Assembly: GCF_001457415.1 (NCBI RefSeq)
Contig: NZ_LN881722.1
Location: forward strand, 62,001 to 126,000
DNA length: 64,000 nucleotides
Direction of reading: 5' to 3'
DNA from: Gorillibacterium timonense
GTDB lineage: Bacteria; Bacillota; Bacilli; Paenibacillales; NBRC-103111
Shown here: piece by piece, positions 3,483 through 63,289 of the stretch
Position numbering within the stretch: the stretch's first letter is position 1
Layout: each line of letters starts with the position of its first letter
Program-made: the position numbers and the translations under genes
The notes under the pieces: generated by a model
What the model was told of the DNA's origin: nothing
The model's input: only the letters and a program-made list of their open reading frames with translations
Database searches by the model: none

Positions 3483-3783
3483 GTCGGATACAGGGAGGGA
3501 GATACAAACGATCTATATTCCTGCGGGCAAGGTGGATTTTGGCTCCGATCACGGCGTCAATCGGTATGAGAAGTGAAAGCGACCTCGTGATGAGGTTGCT
3601 TTTTTTTGGATAAGCTGCACATTCCATTTTATCGATTTATTACATGCGGACCCCGTCGTGTGGATGCGCAGCGGCTTCAACCGGTATGAGAAGTGGTACG
3701 ATAACCGCGGTTCTTGAGTTGACAGCGTACTTGGCGGACGCAGCTTTGTAGGCATTCTAATGACGAGTGCTTATGACTTGGAG
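3483..3783 (+). other. Intergenic region with an 18-bp imperfect direct repeat
   Basis: After the fucosidase comes a terminator and then about 170 bases with no gene. An 18-base sequence ending GGTATGAGAAGTG occurs at 3558-3575 and again at 3678-3695 with one mismatch. Both copies would read NRYEK in the same relative frame, so they may be remnants of duplicated coding DNA, but no protein family is recognisable. Confidence 0.45.
3576..3608 (+). terminator. Terminator of the GH29 gene
   Basis: AAAGCGACCTC pairs with GAGGTTGCTTT (one G-U pair) around a five-base loop and is followed by a run of T. Confidence 0.75.
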
Positions 3784-3828
3784 TTGCCACAGGGGACGAT
3801 CTGTGATCTAATAGTAATAATTACGAAT
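3784..3828 (+). promoter_or_regulatory. Promoter overlapped by a candidate Zur operator
   Basis: A sigma-A type promoter is visible: -35 TTGCCA (3784-3789), a 17-base spacer and -10 TCTAAT (3807-3812). A 9-1-9 inverted repeat at 3810-3828 contains TAGTAATAATTACGA. It differs at one position from the Bacillus Zur core TCGTAATnATTACGA. It covers the end of the -10 box and the expected transcription start, which is where a repressor should bind. The ribosome site AAGGAGG (3829-3835) follows directly. The downstream genes are COG0523 GTPases, classic Zur targets, so sequence and context agree. Confidence 0.78.
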
Positions 3829-3843
3829 AAGGAGGCGGGACAT

Positions 3844-5091
3844 ATGAAGAACGAACACATGAAAGAAGAACGCATGAAGGAAGATCGTATTCCCGTAACC
3901 GTGCTGTGCGGTTACCTCGGCTCTGGCAAAACGACGCTGCTCAACCATGTGCTGAACAATCGCGAAGGCTTGCGGGTGGCCGTGATCGTTAATGATATGA
4001 GTGAAGTGAATGTCGATGCGGCTCTTGTCCGCTCCGGGTCTAACCTTTCACGGACCGAAGAAAAGCTCGTCCAGCTCTCCAACGGCTGCATCTGCTGCAC
4101 CCTGCGCGCTGACTTGCTTGAAGAAGTGAAGCAATTGGCTGAGCAGAAGCGATTCGACTATATCTTGATCGAATCTACTGGGATTGCCGAACCGCTGCCT
4201 ATTGCCCAGACGTTCTCGTACCGGGATGAAACGGGCCAGATCGACCTGACCGATTATTGCCGGCTCGACTGCATGGTAACGGTAGTGGATGCTTATAGCT
4301 TCTGGCAAGATTTTTCCTCCGGGGAAAGCTTGCTGGAAAGGTCTCAGGCAACCAGCGAAAACGACACTCGCGATGTAGTCGATCTGCTGATCGACCAGAT
4401 CGAATTTTGCGATGTTCTGGTGTTGAACAAATGCGACCGCCTGTCGGAACAGGAGCTGCTGGAGCTGGAGGCTGTACTCCGGGCGCTGCAGCCGCGGGCC
4501 AAGCTGGTTCGCAGTGTGTACGGAAAAATCGATCCCCAGGAGATTCTTCACACCGATTTGTTTGATTTCGAGACAGCCAGCACATCGGCGGGCTGGATGC
4601 GTGAATTGGAGAACGAGCATGTTCCGGAGACCGAGGAGTATGGTATCGGGTCCTTCGTCTATCGGCGCAGACGGCCGTTTCATCCCGAGAGGTTGTATCA
4701 CTTCTTTGAGGACTGGCCCGAAGAGGTCGTTCGCTCCAAAGGCTATTTGTGGATTGCGACGCGGACTGACATCGCAGCGTCCATCGGCCAGGCAGGACCA
4801 TCGATTCAATTCGGGCCAGCAGGCTACTGGGTAGCCTCCCTCTCTTCTCCCGAGAGGGAAGAGGTGCTTCGGGATAATCCGGAGGTTCTGGAAAATTGGG
4901 ACTCCCGTTGGGGAGACCGCATTACCGAGTGGGTGCTCATCGGTATCCAACTGGATCGCGAGGGGATCACTGCTGAACTGGATAAGTGTTTGCTTACAAA
5001 TGCCGAGATGATGGAGGACTGGAGCTCCTTTGCCGATCCGCTGCCTGCTTGGCCGAATCTTGAATCGGCGAAGGAGGAGATCGGCAAATGA
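3844..5091 (+). CDS. COG0523 (G3E family) GTPase, YciC/ZagA-like zinc metallochaperone
   Basis: This 415-residue P-loop GTPase belongs to the CobW/COG0523 group. It has a Walker A motif GYLGSGKTT (about residue 23), the metal-binding signature CICC in NGCICCTLRADL, the G3 region ESTGIAEP, an NKCD base-recognition motif and a CobW_C domain at the C terminus (from about 280). The family delivers zinc to client enzymes when zinc is scarce. The start is placed at the ATG at 3844, eight bases after AAGGAGG; an upstream in-frame ATG at 3760 lies before the promoter. Repression by Zur is predicted. The gene overlaps the next GTPase gene by ATGA. Confidence 0.88.
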   Translation: MKNEHMKEERMKEDRIPVTVLCGYLGSGKTTLLNHVLNNREGLRVAVIVNDMSEVNVDAALVRSGSNLSRTEEKLVQLSNGCICCTLRADLLEEVKQLAEQKRFDYILIESTGIAEPLPIAQTFSYRDETGQIDLTDYCRLDCMVTVVDAYSFWQDFSSGESLLERSQATSENDTRDVVDLLIDQIEFCDVLVLNKCDRLSEQELLELEAVLRALQPRAKLVRSVYGKIDPQEILHTDLFDFETASTSAGWMRELENEHVPETEEYGIGSFVYRRRRPFHPERLYHFFEDWPEEVVRSKGYLWIATRTDIAASIGQAGPSIQFGPAGYWVASLSSPEREEVLRDNPEVLENWDSRWGDRITEWVLIGIQLDREGITAELDKCLLTNAEMMEDWSSFADPLPAWPNLESAKEEIGK

Positions 5092-6149
5092 CGGAACATA
5101 GCCTCGATATGAGCGCCCCCGTCCCCATTATGGTCCTGTCGGGATTCCTCGGCAGTGGCAAGACAACACTGTTGACCCGCATGCTGGAGGAAACGAAAGC
5201 CGCAGGGCTGAAGCCCGCTGTCATCATGAACGAGATCGGAGAGATCAGCTTGGACGGAGCCATGGTCCAAGCTGAGGTGCCCATGACAGAGATCATGGAT
5301 GGCTGTATCTGCTGCAGCGTACGTGGAGAGTTGGCGCTGGCGATCAAATTGCTTATTGAGGAGCATGCGCCAGATATCGTCATTGTTGAAGCAACCGGTT
5401 TAGCCAACCCGGTAGAGATTATCGAGTCCATAACCGATACTTCGCTGATCATGAACACGGAGTTGCGCAGCATAGTCACGGTCATTGGCGCGGATCACTT
5501 CTTCGCCATGATGGGAGGCAGCGGAGCTAAAAAGGCTTCCCGCGCCACGCTGGCGCTTCTGGAGGATCAAGTACGAGTGGCCAACCGTTTGATTCTGAAC
5601 AAGACCGATTTGCTATATCCCGATCAGCTCTTCCTCGTTCATGAGCAAATCCGCTTGTGGAATGAAAGTGCCCAGGTTTTCCAGACGAGCTATGCCGAGA
5701 TTTCCATTGATGAACTGATCGATAGGGGAGCGGAAGCGCCTAATTGGGAGGAGGAAAAGGTCATCGCGGGGGACCAAGGTGACGATGATACCTGTCTTAG
5801 GCATCCGCATCACGACCATGTTACGGTCTTTACTCATAAGCTGAGCGGCCCGATTAAACGGAGCCATTTTCAGCGCTTTATCGCCGAATTGCCTGCCGAA
5901 GTCTATCGTTCCAAGGGACTCGTCACCTTTGAAGGCAAAGAAGAGGAGCGGCAGCTATTCCAGTATTCCTATCGCGAGGTATCCTTGACCAAATTGCTTC
6001 CTCGCAAATCGATTCCGGATGTGCTGGTCGTGATGGGCGAGGGGATCTCTCGCACGAAGCTGGCTCAAATGATGCTTCAGCTTGAAGGAAATCTTCCGAG
6101 GACGGTAAGGACGGGTAAAATCATGAGGGAAAATCTGCCTCATTCCTGA
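5088..6149 (+). CDS. Second COG0523 (G3E family) GTPase
   Basis: This 353-residue paralogue of the preceding gene carries SGFLGSGKTT near the N terminus, DGCICCSVRGEL with the CxCC metal motif, EATGLANP and the nucleotide-recognition motif NKTD. A His-rich stretch (HPHHDH, about residue 241) precedes the CobW_C domain. Such His clusters are typical of metal-binding members. Its ATG overlaps the stop of the upstream GTPase (ATGA), so the two are translationally coupled and share the Zur-type promoter. The two proteins differ throughout, which argues against a recent duplication and for distinct client proteins. The exact partner is unknown. Confidence 0.87.
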   Translation: MTEHSLDMSAPVPIMVLSGFLGSGKTTLLTRMLEETKAAGLKPAVIMNEIGEISLDGAMVQAEVPMTEIMDGCICCSVRGELALAIKLLIEEHAPDIVIVEATGLANPVEIIESITDTSLIMNTELRSIVTVIGADHFFAMMGGSGAKKASRATLALLEDQVRVANRLILNKTDLLYPDQLFLVHEQIRLWNESAQVFQTSYAEISIDELIDRGAEAPNWEEEKVIAGDQGDDDTCLRHPHHDHVTVFTHKLSGPIKRSHFQRFIAELPAEVYRSKGLVTFEGKEEERQLFQYSYREVSLTKLLPRKSIPDVLVVMGEGISRTKLAQMMLQLEGNLPRTVRTGKIMRENLPHS

Positions 6150-6412: not shown

Positions 6413-6525
6413 ATGCGTTACTCATGATGAGCTTGCCATTATGGGCAAATCACCCGTCTCATGCTATTCGACCTTTTCATCGGTTTGCACCCACGCTCTA
6501 GTCGATATATCGTAATTAACTCAAA

Positions 6526-6553
6526 TTCAAATGAATATTTCTGGTAAGATAAT
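6526..6553 (+). promoter_or_regulatory. Possible promoter of the Rgg-type gene
   Basis: TTCAAA (6526-6531) and GATAAT (6548-6553) are separated by 16 bases. The arms CAAATTC (6522-6528) and GAATTTG (6565-6571) form an inverted repeat flanking the region, which could be an autoregulatory site. This is a weak prediction. Confidence 0.3.
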
Positions 6554-6584
6554 GTCATATATGAGAATTTGAAAGGAAAACACT

Positions 6585-7454
6585 ATGGAAAACAATAATA
6601 TCGGAAAAATTTTCAGGAAAATTCGGTTGGGGAGACAAATGTCATTAAAAGAGGTTTCAGGTCAGTCCTTATCGTTATCTTTTATTTCAAAATTTGAAAG
6701 AGGGGAAACGGAAATCTCTTTATCGAGATTTCTACTTCTGCTCGATCAGCTGAACGTGAACATTGATGAATTTGTTAAGATCCATCAAGTAGAGAATCCA
6801 AGCGAAGTTGATATATTGATGCGTGAAACAGCCAATGCATTTTTCAATAATAATGTGCAAATGTTAAAAAAAATCGAAGAGAATGAATTAATGAAGTGGG
6901 AAAAAACAGCTAAGAAGCAATACTACTATAATTCTATAATGGTTGCTGCATTTGCTTCTGAGGTTTCTGGAGAGAAATTGAGTAAATCCAAAACACAAGA
7001 TCTATCGGACTATCTATTTGGCGTTGAATATTGGGGGAAGTACGAACTGATGATTTACGGAAATTCAATAGGGGTTCTTCCAATAAAAACGACTGTATTA
7101 TTAACGAATGAACTTATCAATAGAACGATACTATTTGGCACAGTAGAAGAAAACTATAGAGCCAGGATAGGATTACTAATAAATTCCATTCACGCATGTT
7201 TACTACATAATGATCTAATCAATGCAGAGCGATTCTTAGGAGTTATAAGAGAAATGAAGCTAGGCGATCTACTACTCTATGAAAAATGTGAGTACAAATT
7301 TGCTTATGGAATTTACTTAATTAAATGTGGAGATATAAGCATCGGAAAACAGAATGCACAGGATGCACTGCAAGTTCTAAGGGTATTGAATTCAACTAAT
7401 TTGCTAATGGCTCGTGAGGAAATTCTTAAAAACGCATTGAGTTCTCATATATGA
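6585..7454 (+). CDS. Rgg/GadR/MutR family transcriptional regulator
   Basis: This 289-residue protein has an N-terminal XRE helix-turn-helix (about 8-62, with GQSLSLSFISKFERGETEIS) followed by an all-helical TPR-like domain, the layout of Rgg-type regulators. In streptococci such proteins bind short exported peptides that are re-imported as pheromones. The gene is markedly AT-rich compared with its neighbours, suggesting horizontal acquisition together with the ABC transporter at 7644. A ribosome site (GAAAGGAAAA) precedes the ATG. A terminator directly follows the stop. The peptide-binding role is inferred from family and context. Confidence 0.8.
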   Translation: MENNNIGKIFRKIRLGRQMSLKEVSGQSLSLSFISKFERGETEISLSRFLLLLDQLNVNIDEFVKIHQVENPSEVDILMRETANAFFNNNVQMLKKIEENELMKWEKTAKKQYYYNSIMVAAFASEVSGEKLSKSKTQDLSDYLFGVEYWGKYELMIYGNSIGVLPIKTTVLLTNELINRTILFGTVEENYRARIGLLINSIHACLLHNDLINAERFLGVIREMKLGDLLLYEKCEYKFAYGIYLIKCGDISIGKQNAQDALQVLRVLNSTNLLMAREEILKNALSSHI

Positions 7455-7492
7455 CAAGTTTTATAAAATGGATTGAAGCTCCTATAAGATGA
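7451..7492 (+). CDS. Possible 13-residue leader peptide overlapping the Rgg stop
   Basis: An ATG overlaps the stop of the regulator gene (ATGA) and opens a frame encoding MTSFIKWIEAPIR. Its stop codon lies exactly at the foot of the hairpin at 7492. Translation could start by reinitiation after the regulator gene, since no separate Shine-Dalgarno is seen. It could be a leader peptide that influences the hairpin, a short signalling peptide, or chance. Conservation would decide. Confidence 0.22.
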   Translation: MTSFIKWIEAPIR

Positions 7493-7536
7493 TGACATGA
7501 GAGATGAACCCCATCTGATCGTGTCATTATTTTTTT
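7492..7536 (+). terminator. Terminator or attenuator between the regulator and the ABC gene
   Basis: ATGACATGA (from 7492) pairs with the TGTCAT arm ending at 7527. AGATG pairs with CATCT inside it, with a small internal loop. A run of T (7531-7536) follows. The structure lies between the Rgg gene and the downstream reading frames, so it either ends the regulator message or attenuates read-through into the transporter. Confidence 0.6.
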
Positions 7537-7553
7537 GGAGGGGAGGACGAGAT

Positions 7554-7625
7554 TTGGTTTGTTCTAGAATAGCTTGGCCCTCTTTTCTTTGGGATCGAGA
7601 ACATGGAGCTAACGACATTGGATGA
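7554..7625 (+). CDS. Possible 23-residue peptide ORF before the ABC transporter
   Basis: A strong ribosome site GGAGGGGAGG (7537-7546) is followed seven bases later by a TTG codon opening a 23-codon frame (MVCSRIAWPSFLWDREHGANDIG). The site follows the T run of the terminator immediately and no other start uses it. In an Rgg plus ABC exporter context a small exported peptide would fit. The sequence does not match a known pheromone or bacteriocin class that I recognise, and the start is non-ATG. Confidence 0.28.
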   Translation: MVCSRIAWPSFLWDREHGANDIG

Positions 7626-7643
7626 ATAAAGGGGAGATTTGGG

Positions 7644-9224
7644 ATGATCAAATCCATCAAACGATTTAAATATGAAAACATTTTTTTGATAGTCTGTCTT
7701 ATCGGATTATCAGTTGTGCAGGTACTGACCTCGTTGATTCATACCTTTGCTTTTGACTCTTTGCTGGGTGGAGGTATACGACATTTCATTTATTGGTATC
7801 TATTTTGCTTAGGGTTGTGGGTCGTGCTGCTCCTGTGCAATTATTTAATTAGAATTTACCAAACCAAGTTAATTCAAAAAATGTCGACCGAGATCCGCAA
7901 AGACATGTTACAGCGTGTGGAAAACCTTTCATTTGATGAATTTCATAAGAGTGGAACAGGAGATTATACTTCAAGATTAAGCAATGATGTAACGGCAATT
8001 GAAACATCCGGATTTAAAAGCTTATACAATCTTATAAGCACCGCAAGCATTACGATCTTTTCTTTAATCGCTCTGTTACAATTTAGTGGATATATTATGA
8101 TCACAACGGTTGTACTAACGGTCATGATTTCATTGGTCCCCAATTTGTTTAGCAAAAAGGCAAATAAATCAATGCTGCAGCTATCAGAAGCAAACGAATC
8201 CTTTATCAGCAAACTACAGAATATTCTAAATGGCTTTAGTGTGTTGTTCTTTTCAAATGGCACAAGTAAAATGAAAGACTTTATCGGAAAATACTCGGAA
8301 GAACTAGGTAATGAAAAGGTAAATTATTCAAGGACAACAGGTGCGATTACTTTTTTTATTTCATTAATAAGCGTTATTTCTCAATTAATTATCTTCGTCT
8401 TAACTGGATACCTTGCTTCAATAGGCATAGTCTCGTTCGGTACAATTACTTCAACAGGAAGTATTGCCGGAAATGTGTTTAGTTCATTAACCCAATTTAA
8501 TAGTAATGTTGTTCAAATTAAATCCGTCTATTCCATTTTCAAAAAATTTCAATTTCGTTCAAGTGAAGAAACAAACTCACCTTTCAAATTGGAAAGTAGT
8601 TTCGAAAGCATTGCTCTTGATGATGTTGGTTATAAATACGATGAAAATGAAGTGCTAACGAATATAAATATTTGCTTTGAAAAAGGAAAAAAGTATGCAA
8701 TCACTGGAGTTAGCGGAAGTGGTAAATCTACGCTTATGAATATCTTGCTTGGAACAAAGAAGGATTACACCGGATCAGCCAAGCTGAATGGAATTGAAAT
8801 AAATACAATTTCGGATGATTGCCTCCATCAATACATTGGATTTATTGATCATAAAAACTACATTTTCAACGGCACCCTATCCGATAATATTGCATTATGG
8901 AGAGATTATCCGGATGAGGAAATGATGGATGCTGTAAGGCACGCAAACGTAGCTGAAATCGGATGCATTGATGAAGAGATTGGAAACGGCAAAAGACTTT
9001 TATCAGAAGGACAAAAGCAACGAATTGCTATAGCAAGGGCTCTTATTCAAAAGAAGCCCATCCTCATTATTGATGAAGGGACAGCAAATCTTGATCAAAA
9101 AAATTCGGAGGGAATCGAAAGAGAATTACTTTTGAACCCCAACTTAACCATGATCATGGTAACTCATCACTTAAATAACAACCTAAGAGACTTGTACGAT
9201 GACATAATCACTCTTCATTCCTGA
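7644..9224 (+). CDS. ABC exporter, fused permease and ATPase
   Basis: This 526-residue half-transporter has an N-terminal six-helix type I exporter domain (about 1-300) and a C-terminal ATPase. The ATPase shows Walker A GVSGSGKST (about 355), the signature LSEGQKQR (a variant of LSGGQ), Walker B ILIIDEGTANLD and the switch motif VTHH. No C39 peptidase domain is present, so it would not itself cleave a double-glycine leader. AAAGGGGAG precedes the ATG. It is AT-rich like the neighbouring Rgg gene, and the two form an island. The substrate is unknown; a peptide is an inference from the regulator. A terminator follows. Confidence 0.85.
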   Translation: MIKSIKRFKYENIFLIVCLIGLSVVQVLTSLIHTFAFDSLLGGGIRHFIYWYLFCLGLWVVLLLCNYLIRIYQTKLIQKMSTEIRKDMLQRVENLSFDEFHKSGTGDYTSRLSNDVTAIETSGFKSLYNLISTASITIFSLIALLQFSGYIMITTVVLTVMISLVPNLFSKKANKSMLQLSEANESFISKLQNILNGFSVLFFSNGTSKMKDFIGKYSEELGNEKVNYSRTTGAITFFISLISVISQLIIFVLTGYLASIGIVSFGTITSTGSIAGNVFSSLTQFNSNVVQIKSVYSIFKKFQFRSSEETNSPFKLESSFESIALDDVGYKYDENEVLTNINICFEKGKKYAITGVSGSGKSTLMNILLGTKKDYTGSAKLNGIEINTISDDCLHQYIGFIDHKNYIFNGTLSDNIALWRDYPDEEMMDAVRHANVAEIGCIDEEIGNGKRLLSEGQKQRIAIARALIQKKPILIIDEGTANLDQKNSEGIERELLLNPNLTMIMVTHHLNNNLRDLYDDIITLHS

Positions 9225-9251
9225 AAAGGAAAGAATCCATTCTATTATCAG

Positions 9252-9280
9252 AAAAGCGACCTTAATCGGTCGCTTTTTCT
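9252..9280 (+). terminator. Terminator of the ABC transporter gene
   Basis: AAAAGCGACC pairs with GGTCGCTTTT around TTAATC and is followed by T residues. Confidence 0.8.
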
Positions 9281-9320
9281 TTCCCATTACACGAATGATA
9301 GAGTAGTCCAGGCTTCCACG

Positions 9321-9602
9321 TTGGTTTTTGATAAGGAAACGGGTAAGCTCATTGCCAATTGCCGCCTTTGTTTACAGGACAACATAGCAGCAGTTTACAG
9401 TATCGGGGTTGTACCGGCTCATAGAGGAAGAGGATTGGCTACGCGCATGTTGCAAAGAGCCTTGACGAGTCTAAAGGGGAACTATCCCTTATTAAGGTTG
9501 TATGTGATGGAAGGGAACGATGCGGAATCGGTGTATTGGAATCTTGGTTTCATGCCTGGAGTACAGGAAATTGAAAACATGTATATTCCTGCGAACCAGT
9601 AG
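9321..9602 (+). pseudogene. GNAT acetyltransferase, C-terminal fragment
   Basis: The frame encodes the end of a GNAT N-acetyltransferase: VFDKETGKLIA, then the acetyl-CoA-binding motif A (VVPAHRGRGLATRML) and the final YWNLGF strand. A complete GNAT domain needs about 60 more residues before this. The frame stays open upstream through the terminator at 9252, reading TNDRVVQASTLVFDK, so the original gene extended further left. No ribosome site supports the TTG at 9321. It is probably a remnant cut when the AT-rich Rgg/ABC island was inserted. Confidence 0.6.
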
Positions 9603-9678: not shown

Positions 9679-10086
9679 TTAGCACTCCGTTATTTTGATG
9701 CAATGTGCTTGAATGACTGAGGTTAATTCCTGGAATCTATACTTATGGATTACCATATCCACGGTGAAGTCCTCGGCCTTCTTTGTATCCATTATGAAAT
9801 ACAGGCCATTATAGCGCAAAAATAGGACAAGTGCCGTAAAAGCAGTACGTTTGTTGGCGTTGTGGAAGGGATGGTTTTGCCCCAGTGATTCAAATAATGC
9901 GGCTGCCTTTTCGAATAGGGTCGGGTATGCATCTTCCTCAAAAGCCGAGGATTGAGGCCGATAAACGGCAGATTCAAGCATTCCAGGGTCTTTGACCCCA
10001 ACCTGTTCACCCGGACTATAGCGCTGAATCATGGCAAGGTTAATGGCAATGACTTCTTGGGCGGATAAATAGCGGGTTAAGCTCAT
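9679..10086 (-). CDS. Doc-type toxin (Fic fold) of a toxin-antitoxin pair
   Basis: This 135-residue Doc/death-on-curing family protein carries the Fic-type motif HPFHNANKR (from His72), matching HxFx(D/N)ANKR. In phage P1 the Doc enzyme phosphorylates EF-Tu and arrests translation. Its ATG overlaps the stop of the upstream antitoxin gene (ATGA), giving the usual coupled antitoxin-first order. The partner here is an AbrB/SpoVT-type protein and not Phd. Confidence 0.87.
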   Translation of the reverse strand: MSLTRYLSAQEVIAINLAMIQRYSPGEQVGVKDPGMLESAVYRPQSSAFEEDAYPTLFEKAAALFESLGQNHPFHNANKRTAFTALVLFLRYNGLYFIMDTKKAEDFTVDMVIHKYRFQELTSVIQAHCIKITEC

Positions 10087-10346
10087 CTGTCTTTGAGACC
10101 GTGTAACGTCTGATCATACAGGTTAATTACATCTGCCAGGGAGTCCATAAAATCTTCACTAATTCCTTGGGGCAAGGAGACTTTCGTTGATTTCTTAATA
10201 ATGATTTCTCCGGTAGATGGATTTACATCGATGCTGACCGTATCGCCTTGATCGAGTCCAATTTGTTTTAAAGCGTCCGTCATCGTTATACCTAGACTGT
10301 TACCAAACTTCGTCACTTTTCTTTCCATCCCAATCATCCTGTCCAT
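10083..10346 (-). CDS. AbrB/SpoVT-type (MazE-like) antitoxin
   Basis: This 87-residue protein has the swapped-hairpin AbrB DNA-binding domain (KVTKFGNSLGITMTDALKQIGLDQGD) and an acidic C-terminal tail likely to bind the toxin. AAGGAGG seven bases before the ATG at 10346 supports this start; an in-frame ATG at 10328 is an alternative. It lies directly before the Doc toxin gene with a four-base overlap. Such antitoxins usually repress their own promoter. Confidence 0.82.
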   Translation of the reverse strand: MDRMIGMERKVTKFGNSLGITMTDALKQIGLDQGDTVSIDVNPSTGEIIIKKSTKVSLPQGISEDFMDSLADVINLYDQTLHGLKDR

Positions 10347-39740: not shown

Positions 39741-41273
39741 ATGGCATTGGATGCAGATATTAAAGCCCAACTGGCTCAATACCTGCAGCTTCTCGAGGGG
39801 GATGTCCTCCTCAAAGTGAGCGCAGGTACGGATGCCGTGTCCGCGGAGATGCTGGCTCTCGTCGAAGAGATCGCTGGCATGTCTCCCCGGATCACGGTGG
39901 AAAAGGCCTCGTTGCCCAAAACGCCGAGCTTTAGCGTCAATCGCGCAGGTCAAGCGGACAGCGGCATTACCTTTGCCGGCATTCCGCTTGGCCACGAGTT
40001 CACGTCCTTGGTGCTCGCCCTGCTGCAAGTAAGCGGCAGGCCGCCCAAGGTGGAGCAGAAGGTCATCGATCAGATCAAAGCCATTCGCGGCGAGTATCAC
40101 TTCGAGACGTATGTCAGCCTGAGCTGCCATAACTGTCCCGACGTGGTGCAAGCGCTGAACGTGCTGAGCGTGCTGAACCCAGGCATCACCCACACCATGA
40201 TCGACGGCGCGGCCTTTAAGGATGAGGTCGAAAGCAAGAACATCATGGCGGTGCCTTCGGTTTACCTGAACGGAGAATTCTTCAACAGCGGACGTACGTC
40301 CCTCGAAGAAATTCTCGCCAAGCTGGGCAGCCAGCCCGACGCTTCCGAATTGGCGAACAAGGAGCCCTATGACGTGCTCGTCATCGGCGGCGGTCCGGCC
40401 GGCGCGAGCGCGGCGATCTATGCGGCGCGCAAAGGCATCCGCACCGGTATCGTCGCAGAGCGCTTCGGCGGCCAAGTGCTGGACACCTTGGGCATCGAGA
40501 ATTTCATCAGCGTGAAATACACCGAAGGGCCCAAGCTGGCGGCAAGCCTCGAAGAGCATGTGAACGAATACGGCGTCGATGTGATGAAGGTCCAGCGCGC
40601 CAAGCGTCTGGAAAAGAAAGAGCTCATCGAAGTCGAGCTGGAGAGCGGAGCGGTGCTGAAGAGCAAAACCGTCATCCTCTCGACCGGCGCTCGCTGGCGC
40701 AACGTCGGCGTTCCCGGCGAAGCCGAGTTCAAAAACAAAGGGGTCGCTTACTGCCCCCATTGCGATGGTCCTCTCTTCGCGGGCAAGCATGTTGCGGTTA
40801 TCGGCGGCGGCAACTCTGGCATCGAGGCTGCGATTGACTTGGCCGGTGTCGTGAAACATGTCACCGTTCTGGAATTCCTGCCTGAGCTTAAAGCCGACTC
40901 GGTCCTCCAGGAACGGCTATACAGCCTTCCGAACGTAACGGTTCTGAAGAATGTGCAAACCAAGGAGATCACCGGCACGGATAAAGTGAACGGCATTACG
41001 TATGTGGACCGGGAAACCGGAGCGGAGCATCACACCGAGCTGCAAGGCGTATTCGTGCAGATTGGCCTTGTTCCCAATACCGATTGGTTGGGTGACACGG
41101 TGGAGCGTACCCGCTTTGGCGAGATTGTAGTGGATCGCCACGGCGCAACCAACGTGCCCGGCGTGTTTGCTGCAGGCGACTGTACCAACAGTCCCTTCAA
41201 GCAGATCATCATATCGATGGGATCGGGCGCGACGGCAGCCTTGGGCGCGTTCGATTATCTCATCCGCAATTAA
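39741..41273 (+). CDS. ahpF: Alkyl hydroperoxide reductase subunit F (flavoprotein disulfide reductase)
   Basis: This 510-residue flavoprotein has a double thioredoxin-like N-terminal domain with the redox pair CHNC (Cys129, Cys132). A thioredoxin-reductase-like part follows, with FAD motif [11 protein letters not shown] (about 215), active disulfide CPHC (Cys338, Cys341) and NADH motif [12 protein letters not shown]. It passes electrons from NADH to AhpC. The operon ends in a long terminator at 41339. Confidence 0.97.
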
Positions 41274-61776: not shown

Positions 61777-63289
61777 CGAGCCGCTGGTGCGGATCGGTCT
61801 AAAATCAGTTATCGATTGGAAGGGGAACGGCATGGAGATCGTTGGAGAAGCTGCGGACGGCGCGGAAACGCTGGAGCAAATCTCTAGCCTGAGTCCGGAT
61901 GTCGTCTTCCTGGATATCAAGATGCCGAAGAAGGATGGCATCGCCGTGATGAAGGAAATGCGGCAGCTCGGCTCGACCGCCAAGGTCATCATCCTGAGCA
62001 GCTTTGACGACATCGCTTATGTCAAGGAGGCGATGAAGCTCGGAGCGGTCGATTATTTTCATAAACCCGCTATGAACGAGGAGGAAATCACCGCCGTCCT
62101 GAAGGAGCTTCAAAGCGAGGCGACCCAAGGCGGGTTTTCTCCCAAGCAGCCGAGAGCCGATCATCCGGCTTCGTCCAAAGCGGATGATCTGCGCGAAGGG
62201 CTGCGCGGCAACAGCGGGGTCATGCGGAGATCCAGCCATCTGAAGGAAGCCGGAATCTACGTTCTGCTGTTTTCCATCAAGCATTATGGGACGGTGATCA
62301 AGCGCTATCCCCATGAGCAGCCCCATATATTGCCGGATACGGTGGACAATATCGTGGCGGAGGTGCTGGGGAAGGAGAAGGAGACCGAGTACCTGCGTAT
62401 CGATGACCGCGTGTCGGCCGTTCTGATCAGCAACAGTGAGCTGAAGAGCTTGCTGGCCTCCTTGAATCGGGTCAACGGGCTGGTTCAAACACTTACTACG
62501 GCCTTGAAACGGTTCGTCAATGTCGATGCCGTCTTTGGCATCAGCGATTGGTTCTCCTCCTTCGGAGGCTTGGAAACGGGATATGCGCAGGCGCAAACGG
62601 CTCTTGAGCAGGCGTTCTATATGCCCGAGCCTTCCGTTTTTTATTTTCATTTCTGCAAGCCTGTCGACCCGAGCAGCCTCGAGCAATCCGACGTGTTGCT
62701 TGCCTCGATGAAGAATGCGCTTCGGGAGGGAAACTTCAAGAAGTTCAAGGAAATTCTCGAGCGCTGGCAGAAGCTTGTGGAGCGAGCTCGCTGTCTGAAT
62801 GAGCAGGAGGCGCGAAAGGTATACGAAGGTCTGCTCTTCATGCTGGATGAGAGAAAGCCGGACGCAGAGGCGGCGGGAACAGGGGAAACCTTTGCAGAGC
62901 TCTCCGCATCCTTCAACCGGGTCATCGAGAGGGCGACTGCGGAGAAGGACAGCAGCGAGTTGAAGCTGTACAGCCTGCTGATCCGCAACGTGATCCGCTA
63001 TTTGCAGGAGCACTACACAGAGGACCTATCTCTCAAACTGCTTGCGGAGCAATTTCAAGTGAGCCCGAACTATGTAAGCCGTCTCTTCAAGCAGGAGGTA
63101 GGCCGCGGAATATTTGAATACATCAACGAAATTCGGATCGAGAAGGCGAAGGCGCTCTTGAAGGATTATCGCTACAAAATCTACGAAATCGCCGAAATGG
63201 TCGGTTTCAACAGCCAAACCCACTTTTCCACCGTCTTTCAAAGGCTCACAGGAGTGTCGCCTAAGGAGTATCGGAACGATGAAGGTTGA
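61754..63289 (+). CDS. YesN-type response regulator with AraC DNA-binding domain
   Basis: This regulator of about 511 residues has an N-terminal receiver domain (ILIADDEPLVRIG; phospho-Asp54 in VVFLDIKMPKKDG), a middle region of about 250 residues and a C-terminal AraC domain (LLAEQFQVSPNYVSRLFKQ; EMVGFNSQTHFSTVFQRLTG). The GTG at 61754, 23 bases inside the kinase gene, fits the receiver start; the frame is open from 61685. It likely activates the sugar transporter that follows. Confidence 0.9.
   Translation: MRILIADDEPLVRIGLKSVIDWKGNGMEIVGEAADGAETLEQISSLSPDVVFLDIKMPKKDGIAVMKEMRQLGSTAKVIILSSFDDIAYVKEAMKLGAVDYFHKPAMNEEEITAVLKELQSEATQGGFSPKQPRADHPASSKADDLREGLRGNSGVMRRSSHLKEAGIYVLLFSIKHYGTVIKRYPHEQPHILPDTVDNIVAEVLGKEKETEYLRIDDRVSAVLISNSELKSLLASLNRVNGLVQTLTTALKRFVNVDAVFGISDWFSSFGGLETGYAQAQTALEQAFYMPEPSVFYFHFCKPVDPSSLEQSDVLLASMKNALREGNFKKFKEILERWQKLVERARCLNEQEARKVYEGLLFMLDERKPDAEAAGTGETFAELSASFNRVIERATAEKDSSELKLYSLLIRNVIRYLQEHYTEDLSLKLLAEQFQVSPNYVSRLFKQEVGRGIFEYINEIRIEKAKALLKDYRYKIYEIAEMVGFNSQTHFSTVFQRLTGVSPKEYRNDEG

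Follow-up and report, generated by a model that had tools for sequence, protein, structure and literature searches.

In the genome of Gorillibacterium timonense we identified an AT-rich island that pairs a gene for an Rgg-type transcriptional regulator with a gene for an ATP-binding cassette (ABC) exporter. On the sequence comparisons below, we read it, with a probability of roughly 55%, as a horizontally acquired and reduced copy of a class III-like lanthipeptide operon, controlled by Rgg and known from lactic acid bacteria. The copy would have retained the regulator with its predicted operators and the exporter, and the LanKC synthetase and precursor open reading frames (ORFs) of the best-preserved relative were not found. 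The island lies at 6500 to 9278 (plus strand, edges approximate) in a stretch of 64,000 nucleotides, here called the window (positions 62,001 to 126,000 of NZ_LN881722.1, assembly GCF_001457415.1), which is part of contig 5 of the 5.26-Mb genome. Five computed observations underlie this reading: homology, adjacency of the two genes in relatives, agreeing trees, a shared DNA element, and the lack of a RamC_N match in the host genome.

The regulator gene (6585 to 7454, plus strand) encodes 289 amino acids and belongs to the Rgg/GadR/MutR family by its helix-turn-helix (HTH) domain (HTH_3, 30.8 bits; cut-off 23) and its Rgg C-terminal domain (PF21259 Rgg_C, E 3.3e-36, 125 bits; cut-off 27). It also matches TIGR01716 (E 2.8e-31, 108.9 bits; cut-off 36.9) and PDB entry 4yv6 (E 1.8e-33). 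The exporter gene (7644 to 9224, plus strand) encodes 526 amino acids with an ABC_membrane domain, beginning at residue 13, and an ABC_tran domain. The domain scan reported no N-terminal peptidase domain, and the TIGR01193 score of 131 bits (cut-off 524) places the protein outside the peptide-cleaving bacteriocin exporters. In an alignment with six relatives, a Walker A region of the GxSGxGKST type is kept, and LSEGQ stands where most have LSGGQ. The guanine-plus-cytosine (GC) content is 0.347 at 6500 to 9250 versus 0.525 across the remaining window, and the lowest-GC stretch of 2751 bases starts at 6501 when stretches are sampled every 50 bases. An initial annotation, made from the sequence alone, had proposed both gene identities and an AT-rich composition unlike the surroundings, and the results bear out these points.

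Among 104 genomes sampled from the host family, the Rgg (at E 1e-20) and the ABC gene (at E 1e-80) were found only in the window genome, and the same held for the ABC gene (at E 1e-75) among 392 genomes of the host order. Given this restriction and the unusual composition, the island was likely acquired by transfer from another bacterium. We searched each island edge by itself and found no direct repeats inside either. A viral origin was rejected on a search made with the ABC protein alone, which had no exact-peptide relative among viral contigs and one remote phage match (26.5%). Additionally, the segment at 40000 to 64000 had no near match when examined as plasmid-like host DNA.

The nearest relatives of the two proteins are encoded side by side in Streptococcus-like genomes and are 38 to 44% identical for Rgg and 36 to 39% for the ABC protein. 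In a class-wide sample of 398 genomes, Rgg matched at E 1e-12 in 41, the best apart from the window's own being 37% identical, and the ABC gene matched at E 1e-68 in 4, the window included. ABC matches occurred in 25 of 201 genomes of one Lactobacillaceae-like family, with up to seven per genome, and in 8 of 147 genomes of one Streptococcus-like genus, in which Rgg matched at E 1e-45 in 6 (both labels are inferred, that of the genus partly from the number of Rgg genes and from plasmid-like DNA in L178, described below). Exact Rgg peptides had no relatives among the genome contigs searched. An ABC profile scan of those contigs gave at least 80 loci, and no long match among those listed exceeded 29% identity; the neighborhoods of five (L063, L064, L065, L079, and L092) were read. 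The neighborhoods taken from the class-wide sample were 19 Rgg places, of many more matches, and 4 ABC places besides the window's. Another 20 ABC places came from the Lactobacillaceae-like family (13, of many more matches) and the Streptococcus-like genus (7), and all six Rgg places of that genus were included.

The trees of the regulator and the exporter agree. In the Rgg tree (22 rows), the window Rgg is sister to six streptococcal Rggs in a seven-row clade supported at 100/100. In the ABC tree (27 rows), the window protein is sister to those of four streptococcal loci, L178 to L181, at 99/98. ORFs shorter than 240 or 400 amino acids and weaker matches were dropped from these trees, and the Rgg-like genes of L061 and L062 fell below the threshold. 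The Rgg and ABC genes adjoin in L178 to L181, where the Rggs are 40 to 44% identical to the window's, and the agreement between the trees therefore suggests that the pair travelled together. Identity to the six close Rggs is 50 to 61% in the HTH part of the window protein and 35 to 40% in the remainder, a pattern consistent with an operator that was conserved and a ligand that was not. Separately, L061 (7649 to 8942) carries an ABC gene of the same family beside its Rgg-like HTH gene and a 92-amino-acid ORF that, by eye only, resembles the end of an ATP-grasp enzyme.

Next to this pair, the relatives carry different amounts of a peptide operon. The fullest locus, L178, which contains DNA resembling plasmids of Streptococcus suis (a 2.2-kb query matched at 72% over 61% of its length), has in order a 25-amino-acid ORF, a 63-amino-acid ORF, two precursor-like ORFs of 29 amino acids, the Rgg gene, a gene for a LanKC-like protein of 727 amino acids, and the ABC gene. 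Precursor-like labels in the relatives were assigned by eye. The LanKC-like protein matches PF25816 (E 8.1e-42) and Pkinase. Across the relatives, genes were labeled LanKC-like from their RamC_N and kinase domains and from the NCBIfam class III model (NF038151), which the L178 protein matches at 300 bits, short of class III membership at the cut-off of 575. L179 has a 63-amino-acid ORF, an apparently broken precursor-like ORF, the Rgg gene, a 47-codon ORF, and the ABC gene; the 47-codon ORF is a remnant in which both ends of LanKC are joined. L180 and L181 contain Rgg and ABC only, as in the window. In L205 the ABC gene following Rgg is shortened to 92 codons, and L204 lacks ABC but encodes Rgg together with a CYTH-domain protein and a small protein related to the 63-amino-acid ORF product.

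Plasmids of lactic acid bacteria add to this picture. Carnobacterium inhibens plasmid pWNCR47 carries Rgg, a LanKC-like gene, and ABC, and the window's exporter groups with the ABC proteins of pWNCR47 and L178, whose genes adjoin LanKC-like genes. A Lactobacillus kefiranofaciens plasmid (L034) carries a RamC_N fragment, a 42-amino-acid precursor-like ORF (5740 to 5892) before ABC, and behind it a hydrophobic, bacteriocin-like ORF of 66 amino acids (7790 to 7990), both judged by eye. A Lactobacillus gasseri plasmid pairs an annotated LanC-family protein with an ABC gene whose match to the window's falls short of E 1e-60. In L189, a separate 451-amino-acid ORF adjoining the ABC gene has a LanC-like domain. 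Elsewhere in the ABC tree, too, the exporter genes have LanKC-like genes or pieces next to them (L033, L191, L194, and L034), which makes an ancestor with LanKC plausible.

A small protein of 58 to 63 amino acids is conserved in L178 (11807 to 11998), L179 (7833 to 8024), and L204 (5420 to 5596) downstream of the predicted operator described below. It is invariant in 18 of 63 columns and belongs to no Pfam or NCBIfam family. This protein may be the peptide cargo or the signal of this Rgg branch.

We searched the window genome for RamC_N/LanKC, the synthetase that marks a class III cluster, and found no match. Of 12 genomes tested, five contain RamC_N (G959, G1029, G833, G908, and G772), and G1055, G1015, G953, and G966 do not. 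The precursor-like ORFs of two relatives, compared with the window by tblastn, gave a best E of 0.23 or more; such precursors diverge fast. Because neither precursor nor modifying enzyme was found, the window on this evidence holds a regulator and an exporter without their own peptide, and we infer that LanKC was lost in the window's line. The window would look similar if the peptide system were complete but had a precursor or enzyme encoded at a distant locus or diverged past recognition, since precursors are short and easily missed and the genome search for modifying enzymes covered RamC_N only. The missing RamC_N match and the lack of a third exact operator copy in the genome make such a system very improbable.

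The window shares predicted operators with these relatives. A perfect inverted repeat of 15 bp joins the region upstream of rgg (6553 to 6567) to the rgg end (7442 to 7456), and none of 2000 shuffles shared a word as long. Its arms lie in two sites. Site 1, ATGTCATATATGAGAA (6552 to 6567, plus strand), has two mismatches to the ideal 16-bp palindrome TTGTCATATATGACAA; site 2, TTGTCATATATGAGAA (7442 to 7457, minus strand), lies across the rgg stop codon and has one. The 10-mer TTGTCATATA, part of this palindrome, overlaps the stop codon of rgg in the window and in five of the six close relatives (L178, L179, L180, L181, and L205). None of 28 other Rgg 3' ends contains it within one mismatch. 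In the alignment, the conserved bases around TTGTCATATA continue beyond the stop codon, so coding does not account for them. Furthermore, TTGTCATATA recurs upstream of the small-ORF operon in L178, L179, and L204.

Across 47 loci (646,731 bases) we counted 14 exact copies of TTGTCATATA versus 2.3 expected, and 8 versus 0.33 in the six close loci, counts that describe the motif and are no blind test of it, the motif having been picked from the same loci. Five of the remaining six copies lie within about 230 bases of rgg (L035, L042 twice, and L047) or of the ABC gene (L182), and one is inside the rgg of L036. The relatives' sites differ from TTGTCATATATGACAA by one to four bases. A 16-bp palindrome is the form needed by a dimeric HTH protein, and we predict from these comparisons that TTGTCATATATGACAA-like sites are Rgg operators. 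In L042 (6021 to 6053), two facing exact copies of TTGTCATATA lie about 200 bases upstream of a tandem pair of rgg genes, so that a broader set of Rggs may use the operator. A wider regulon within the window genome was considered and rejected: the 13-mer TCTCATATATGAC had 62 matches at up to two mismatches versus 49 for a reversed control, and its only exact matches were the two window sites.

Judged by eye, weak promoter-like boxes seem to overlap or adjoin the operator sites, in a region where the promoter scan was not above chance. A possible rgg promoter, TTCAAA-16-GATAAT (6526 to 6553, plus strand), matches the consensus at 9 of 12 positions. Around site 2, weak boxes form a possible promoter of the ABC gene (7437 to 7469, plus strand), where the scan lists TTCTCA-16-TAAAAT at 7442 to 7469. 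In the mechanism that we propose, an Rgg dimer would bind TTGTCATATATGACAA-like sites at two promoters, its own and one inside the rgg 3' end. A peptide bound in the C-terminal domain of Rgg would thereby determine how much regulator and exporter is made. More tentatively, the exporter might remove the lanthipeptide-like peptides of neighbors, giving protection without production.

The junction between rgg and the ABC gene had suggested a different explanation. The initial annotation suggested that a 23-codon frame there, with a strong ribosome site that no other gene uses, or a neighboring frame, could encode a signal or antibiotic peptide sensed by Rgg and exported by ABC. Both the frame (7554 to 7625, plus strand, start TTG) and the site GGAGGGGAGG (7537 to 7546, plus strand) exist, the site having a 5-nucleotide contiguous match to the ribosome-binding consensus, and streptococcal SHP/Rgg systems do sense short peptides (the available part of PMC11002830). 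The frame is nested in a 42-codon ATG frame (7497 to 7625), and a further frame of 15 codons (7622 to 7669) overlaps the ABC start. However, such a frame is no better than chance. Among 1000 dinucleotide shuffles of the junction, 228 contained a plus-strand frame of 15 to 80 codons with a site of at least 5 nucleotides, and 48 contained one with a 6-nucleotide site; the window as a whole has 115 start codons of equal ribosome-site quality (both strands, genic and intergenic). By tblastn against the collected loci, the 42-codon frame found its own locus only, the next matches having E values of 1.8 or more. No conservation of the frames was seen where the Rgg/ABC pair occurs, the outcome that the annotation had named as refuting its proposal, in a comparison made at about 40% protein identity, the closest available in the genomes searched and a limit on any finer test. 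Additionally, the precursor-like ORFs of L178 and L179 precede rgg and do not lie between rgg and the ABC gene. The mini-ORFs were therefore rejected as genes, and we consider a peptide signal encoded there highly unlikely. What stands of the annotation's proposal of a peptide signaling or antibiotic cassette outside streptococci is the kind of cassette and the nonstreptococcal host.

The strong ribosome site may instead be explained by the relatives. A terminator-like hairpin with a T tract follows rgg (7486 to 7535, plus strand); it was found by folding and is absent from the pattern-scan list. The segment at 7486 to 7533 folds at -22.2 kcal/mol (z -5.95), and L178, L179, L180, and L181, the relatives covered by the folding, have hairpins at the equivalent place (-13.3 to -23.4 kcal/mol, z -3.0 to -5.0). 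Directly behind the T tract, L178 and L179 have the ribosome site and start of LanKC, and in the alignment the window's strong site is at the equivalent position. Judged by this shared position, the site before the 23-codon frame is probably a leftover LanKC start region, which would explain a good ribosome site without a gene behind it. The ABC gene has its own ribosome-site-like sequence, AGGGGAG (7630 to 7636, plus strand), read from the sequence, with a 4-nucleotide contiguous consensus match.

Some drug-efflux pumps are controlled by leader attenuation, and the hairpin with a leader frame could likewise control the ABC gene through premature termination. A strong hairpin between a possible promoter and the ABC start would suit this, as would the equivalent hairpins of four relatives, in which LanKC or ABC comes next with little or no space for another promoter. 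However, the hairpin also fits the end of rgg and its sequence varies among relatives. Folding of the complete junction is just slightly more stable than that of shuffled sequences (z -2.14, with 6 of 200 as good), and Rfam reports no family there. We regard attenuation as unlikely. A known RNA element was also considered; the lone Rfam match, to a microRNA family inside the ABC gene (E 0.06, 23.7 bits versus a gathering cut-off of 74), was judged to be chance.

Streptococcal pairs without an adjacent LanKC were compared for signs of selection. Between L180 and L181, the ratio of nonsynonymous to synonymous substitution rates (dN/dS) is 0.21 for rgg and 0.16 for the ABC gene; rgg has 6 synonymous changes and 5 others, and the ABC gene has 29 and 17. 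The synonymous excess has P values of 0.03 and 2e-8, respectively, given an assumed synonymous share of 24%. With values of 0 to 0.16 in four neighboring genes, the constraint on the pair does not exceed that on its surroundings. Between L178 and L179, in one of which LanKC is cut, the values are 0.12 for rgg and 0.14 for the ABC gene. The low dN/dS of L180 and L181 implies that a pair without an adjacent LanKC can be maintained. The function that we favor for the window, on comparative grounds, is perhaps the sensing and export of foreign lanthipeptide-like peptides, and its main rival is neutral decay. If the island is a relic, the pair was transferred in, is now useless, and will decay. The lack of a RamC_N match in the genome, the stepwise losses among relatives (LanKC cut in L179, ABC cut to 92 codons in L205), and a GNAT gene at the island edge without its first third are all in keeping with decay. 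However, both window ORFs are full length, both predicted operator sites are kept, and the streptococcal pairs without an adjacent LanKC change mainly at synonymous sites; we find a useless relic doubtful. A stronger form of the favored function is an orphan listening-and-protection module, kept by selection once the antibiotic genes had gone, with which nonproducers detect and pump out the class III-like lanthipeptides of their neighbors. The module would have passed to a distantly related family of Bacilli from lactic acid bacteria. We offer it tentatively, as a possibility short of even odds.

Several points weigh against a reduced lanthipeptide operon. Identity to the nearest relatives is only about 40%, and sequence search found no coding trace of LanKC or a precursor in the window, and thus no LanKC sequence to confirm the origin of the orphan ribosome site. 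The LanKC-like proteins of the relatives score 300 and 281 bits against the class III cut-off of 575, and Pfam reported no LanC-like cyclase domain in those of L178, pWNCR47, and L191. G1029, the genome of L180, has a RamC_N gene on a contig other than that of the pair. The selection test concerns the streptococcal relatives and not the window. At the DNA level, L204 lacks TTGTCATATA at its rgg 3' end, the motif counts carry the selection noted above, and promoter-like matches in the region are not above chance (9 found versus 11.4 expected). A reduced operon remains the reading that we prefer.

Compared with known systems, the window most resembles the Rgg-LanKC-like-ABC operons of Lactobacillales represented by L178 and pWNCR47, which have adjoining Rgg and ABC genes of the same families and, in L178, the same predicted operator. 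Both differ from the window by their LanKC-like gene, and L178 also by its precursor-like ORFs; in pWNCR47, rgg is on the opposite strand and no exact TTGTCATATA occurs. A Lactococcus lactis plasmid (NZ_CP094477.1) has an annotated Rgg and then a split LanKC-like gene on one strand, with a major facilitator superfamily transporter rather than an ABC transporter. Class III lanthipeptide clusters consist of LanA, LanKC, and a transporter, and the window's exporter and regulator have relatives beside LanKC-like genes; however, no LanKC or precursor was found in the window, and the relatives' enzymes are below the class III cut-off. In the available part of PMC7268733, most LanKC and LanL are from Actinobacteria and Firmicutes, none from Firmicutes had been characterized by 2020, and one class III precursor family is confined to S. 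pneumoniae.

The SHP/Rgg quorum-sensing systems of Streptococcus likewise place an Rgg beside a peptide-antibiotic-type exporter, and the window Rgg matches the solved Rgg2 and Rgg3 in sequence (4YV9 and 7JI0 in the accessible text of PMC9765709). In Streptococcus, SHP/Rgg controls radical-SAM peptides or peptide genes, according to the portion of PMC11002830 seen. The window differs in its host group and in having no radical-SAM enzyme in the island, and no SHP gene was recognized beside rgg, where the upstream side was judged by eye and no SHP model search was made. The ComR-box of ComRS, likewise a palindrome recognized by an Rgg-like regulator, also consists of inverted GACA/TGTC repeats and is described as 20 bp in the part of PMC6563777 available; the window element has TGTC-N6-GACA in a palindrome of 16 bp. 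An Rgg survey (PMC9765709, as excerpted) detected Rgg in Lactobacillales only, after excluding Rggs without a nearby propeptide. Judged by titles and abstract openings among the matches listed, no article addressed Rgg control of class III lanthipeptides, subscription papers and preprints being outside the scope of that search, and the available part of PMC12445099 contains no word starting with lanthi.

Several further features complete the description. The host genome has a second, remote Rgg-like gene (L002, G000:C7:1281300-1282097; 24% identity, E 2.8e-9). Upstream of the island are two tandem CobW-like GTPase genes (3760 to 6149), the second of which was scanned for domains. A terminator-like hairpin 3' of the ABC gene (9252 to 9278, plus strand) was noted by eye and is absent from the pattern-scan list. 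At the island edge, a GNAT acetyltransferase frame (9225 to 9602) extends without interruption from the stop codon of the ABC gene, and its profile match begins at position 38 of 116, so that about the first third of the gene seems lost. Beyond it, on the minus strand (9679 to 10346), lie a Doc-type toxin gene (DOC_P1) and an antidote-like gene.

Taken together, these results would tie one branch of Rgg regulators to LanKC-type operons and predict the operator of those operons. They also arrange the loci in a graded series, from a full operon to a bare regulator-exporter pair. The ligand of Rgg in operons of this kind and the survival of stripped ones as immunity or eavesdropping modules are now testable questions.

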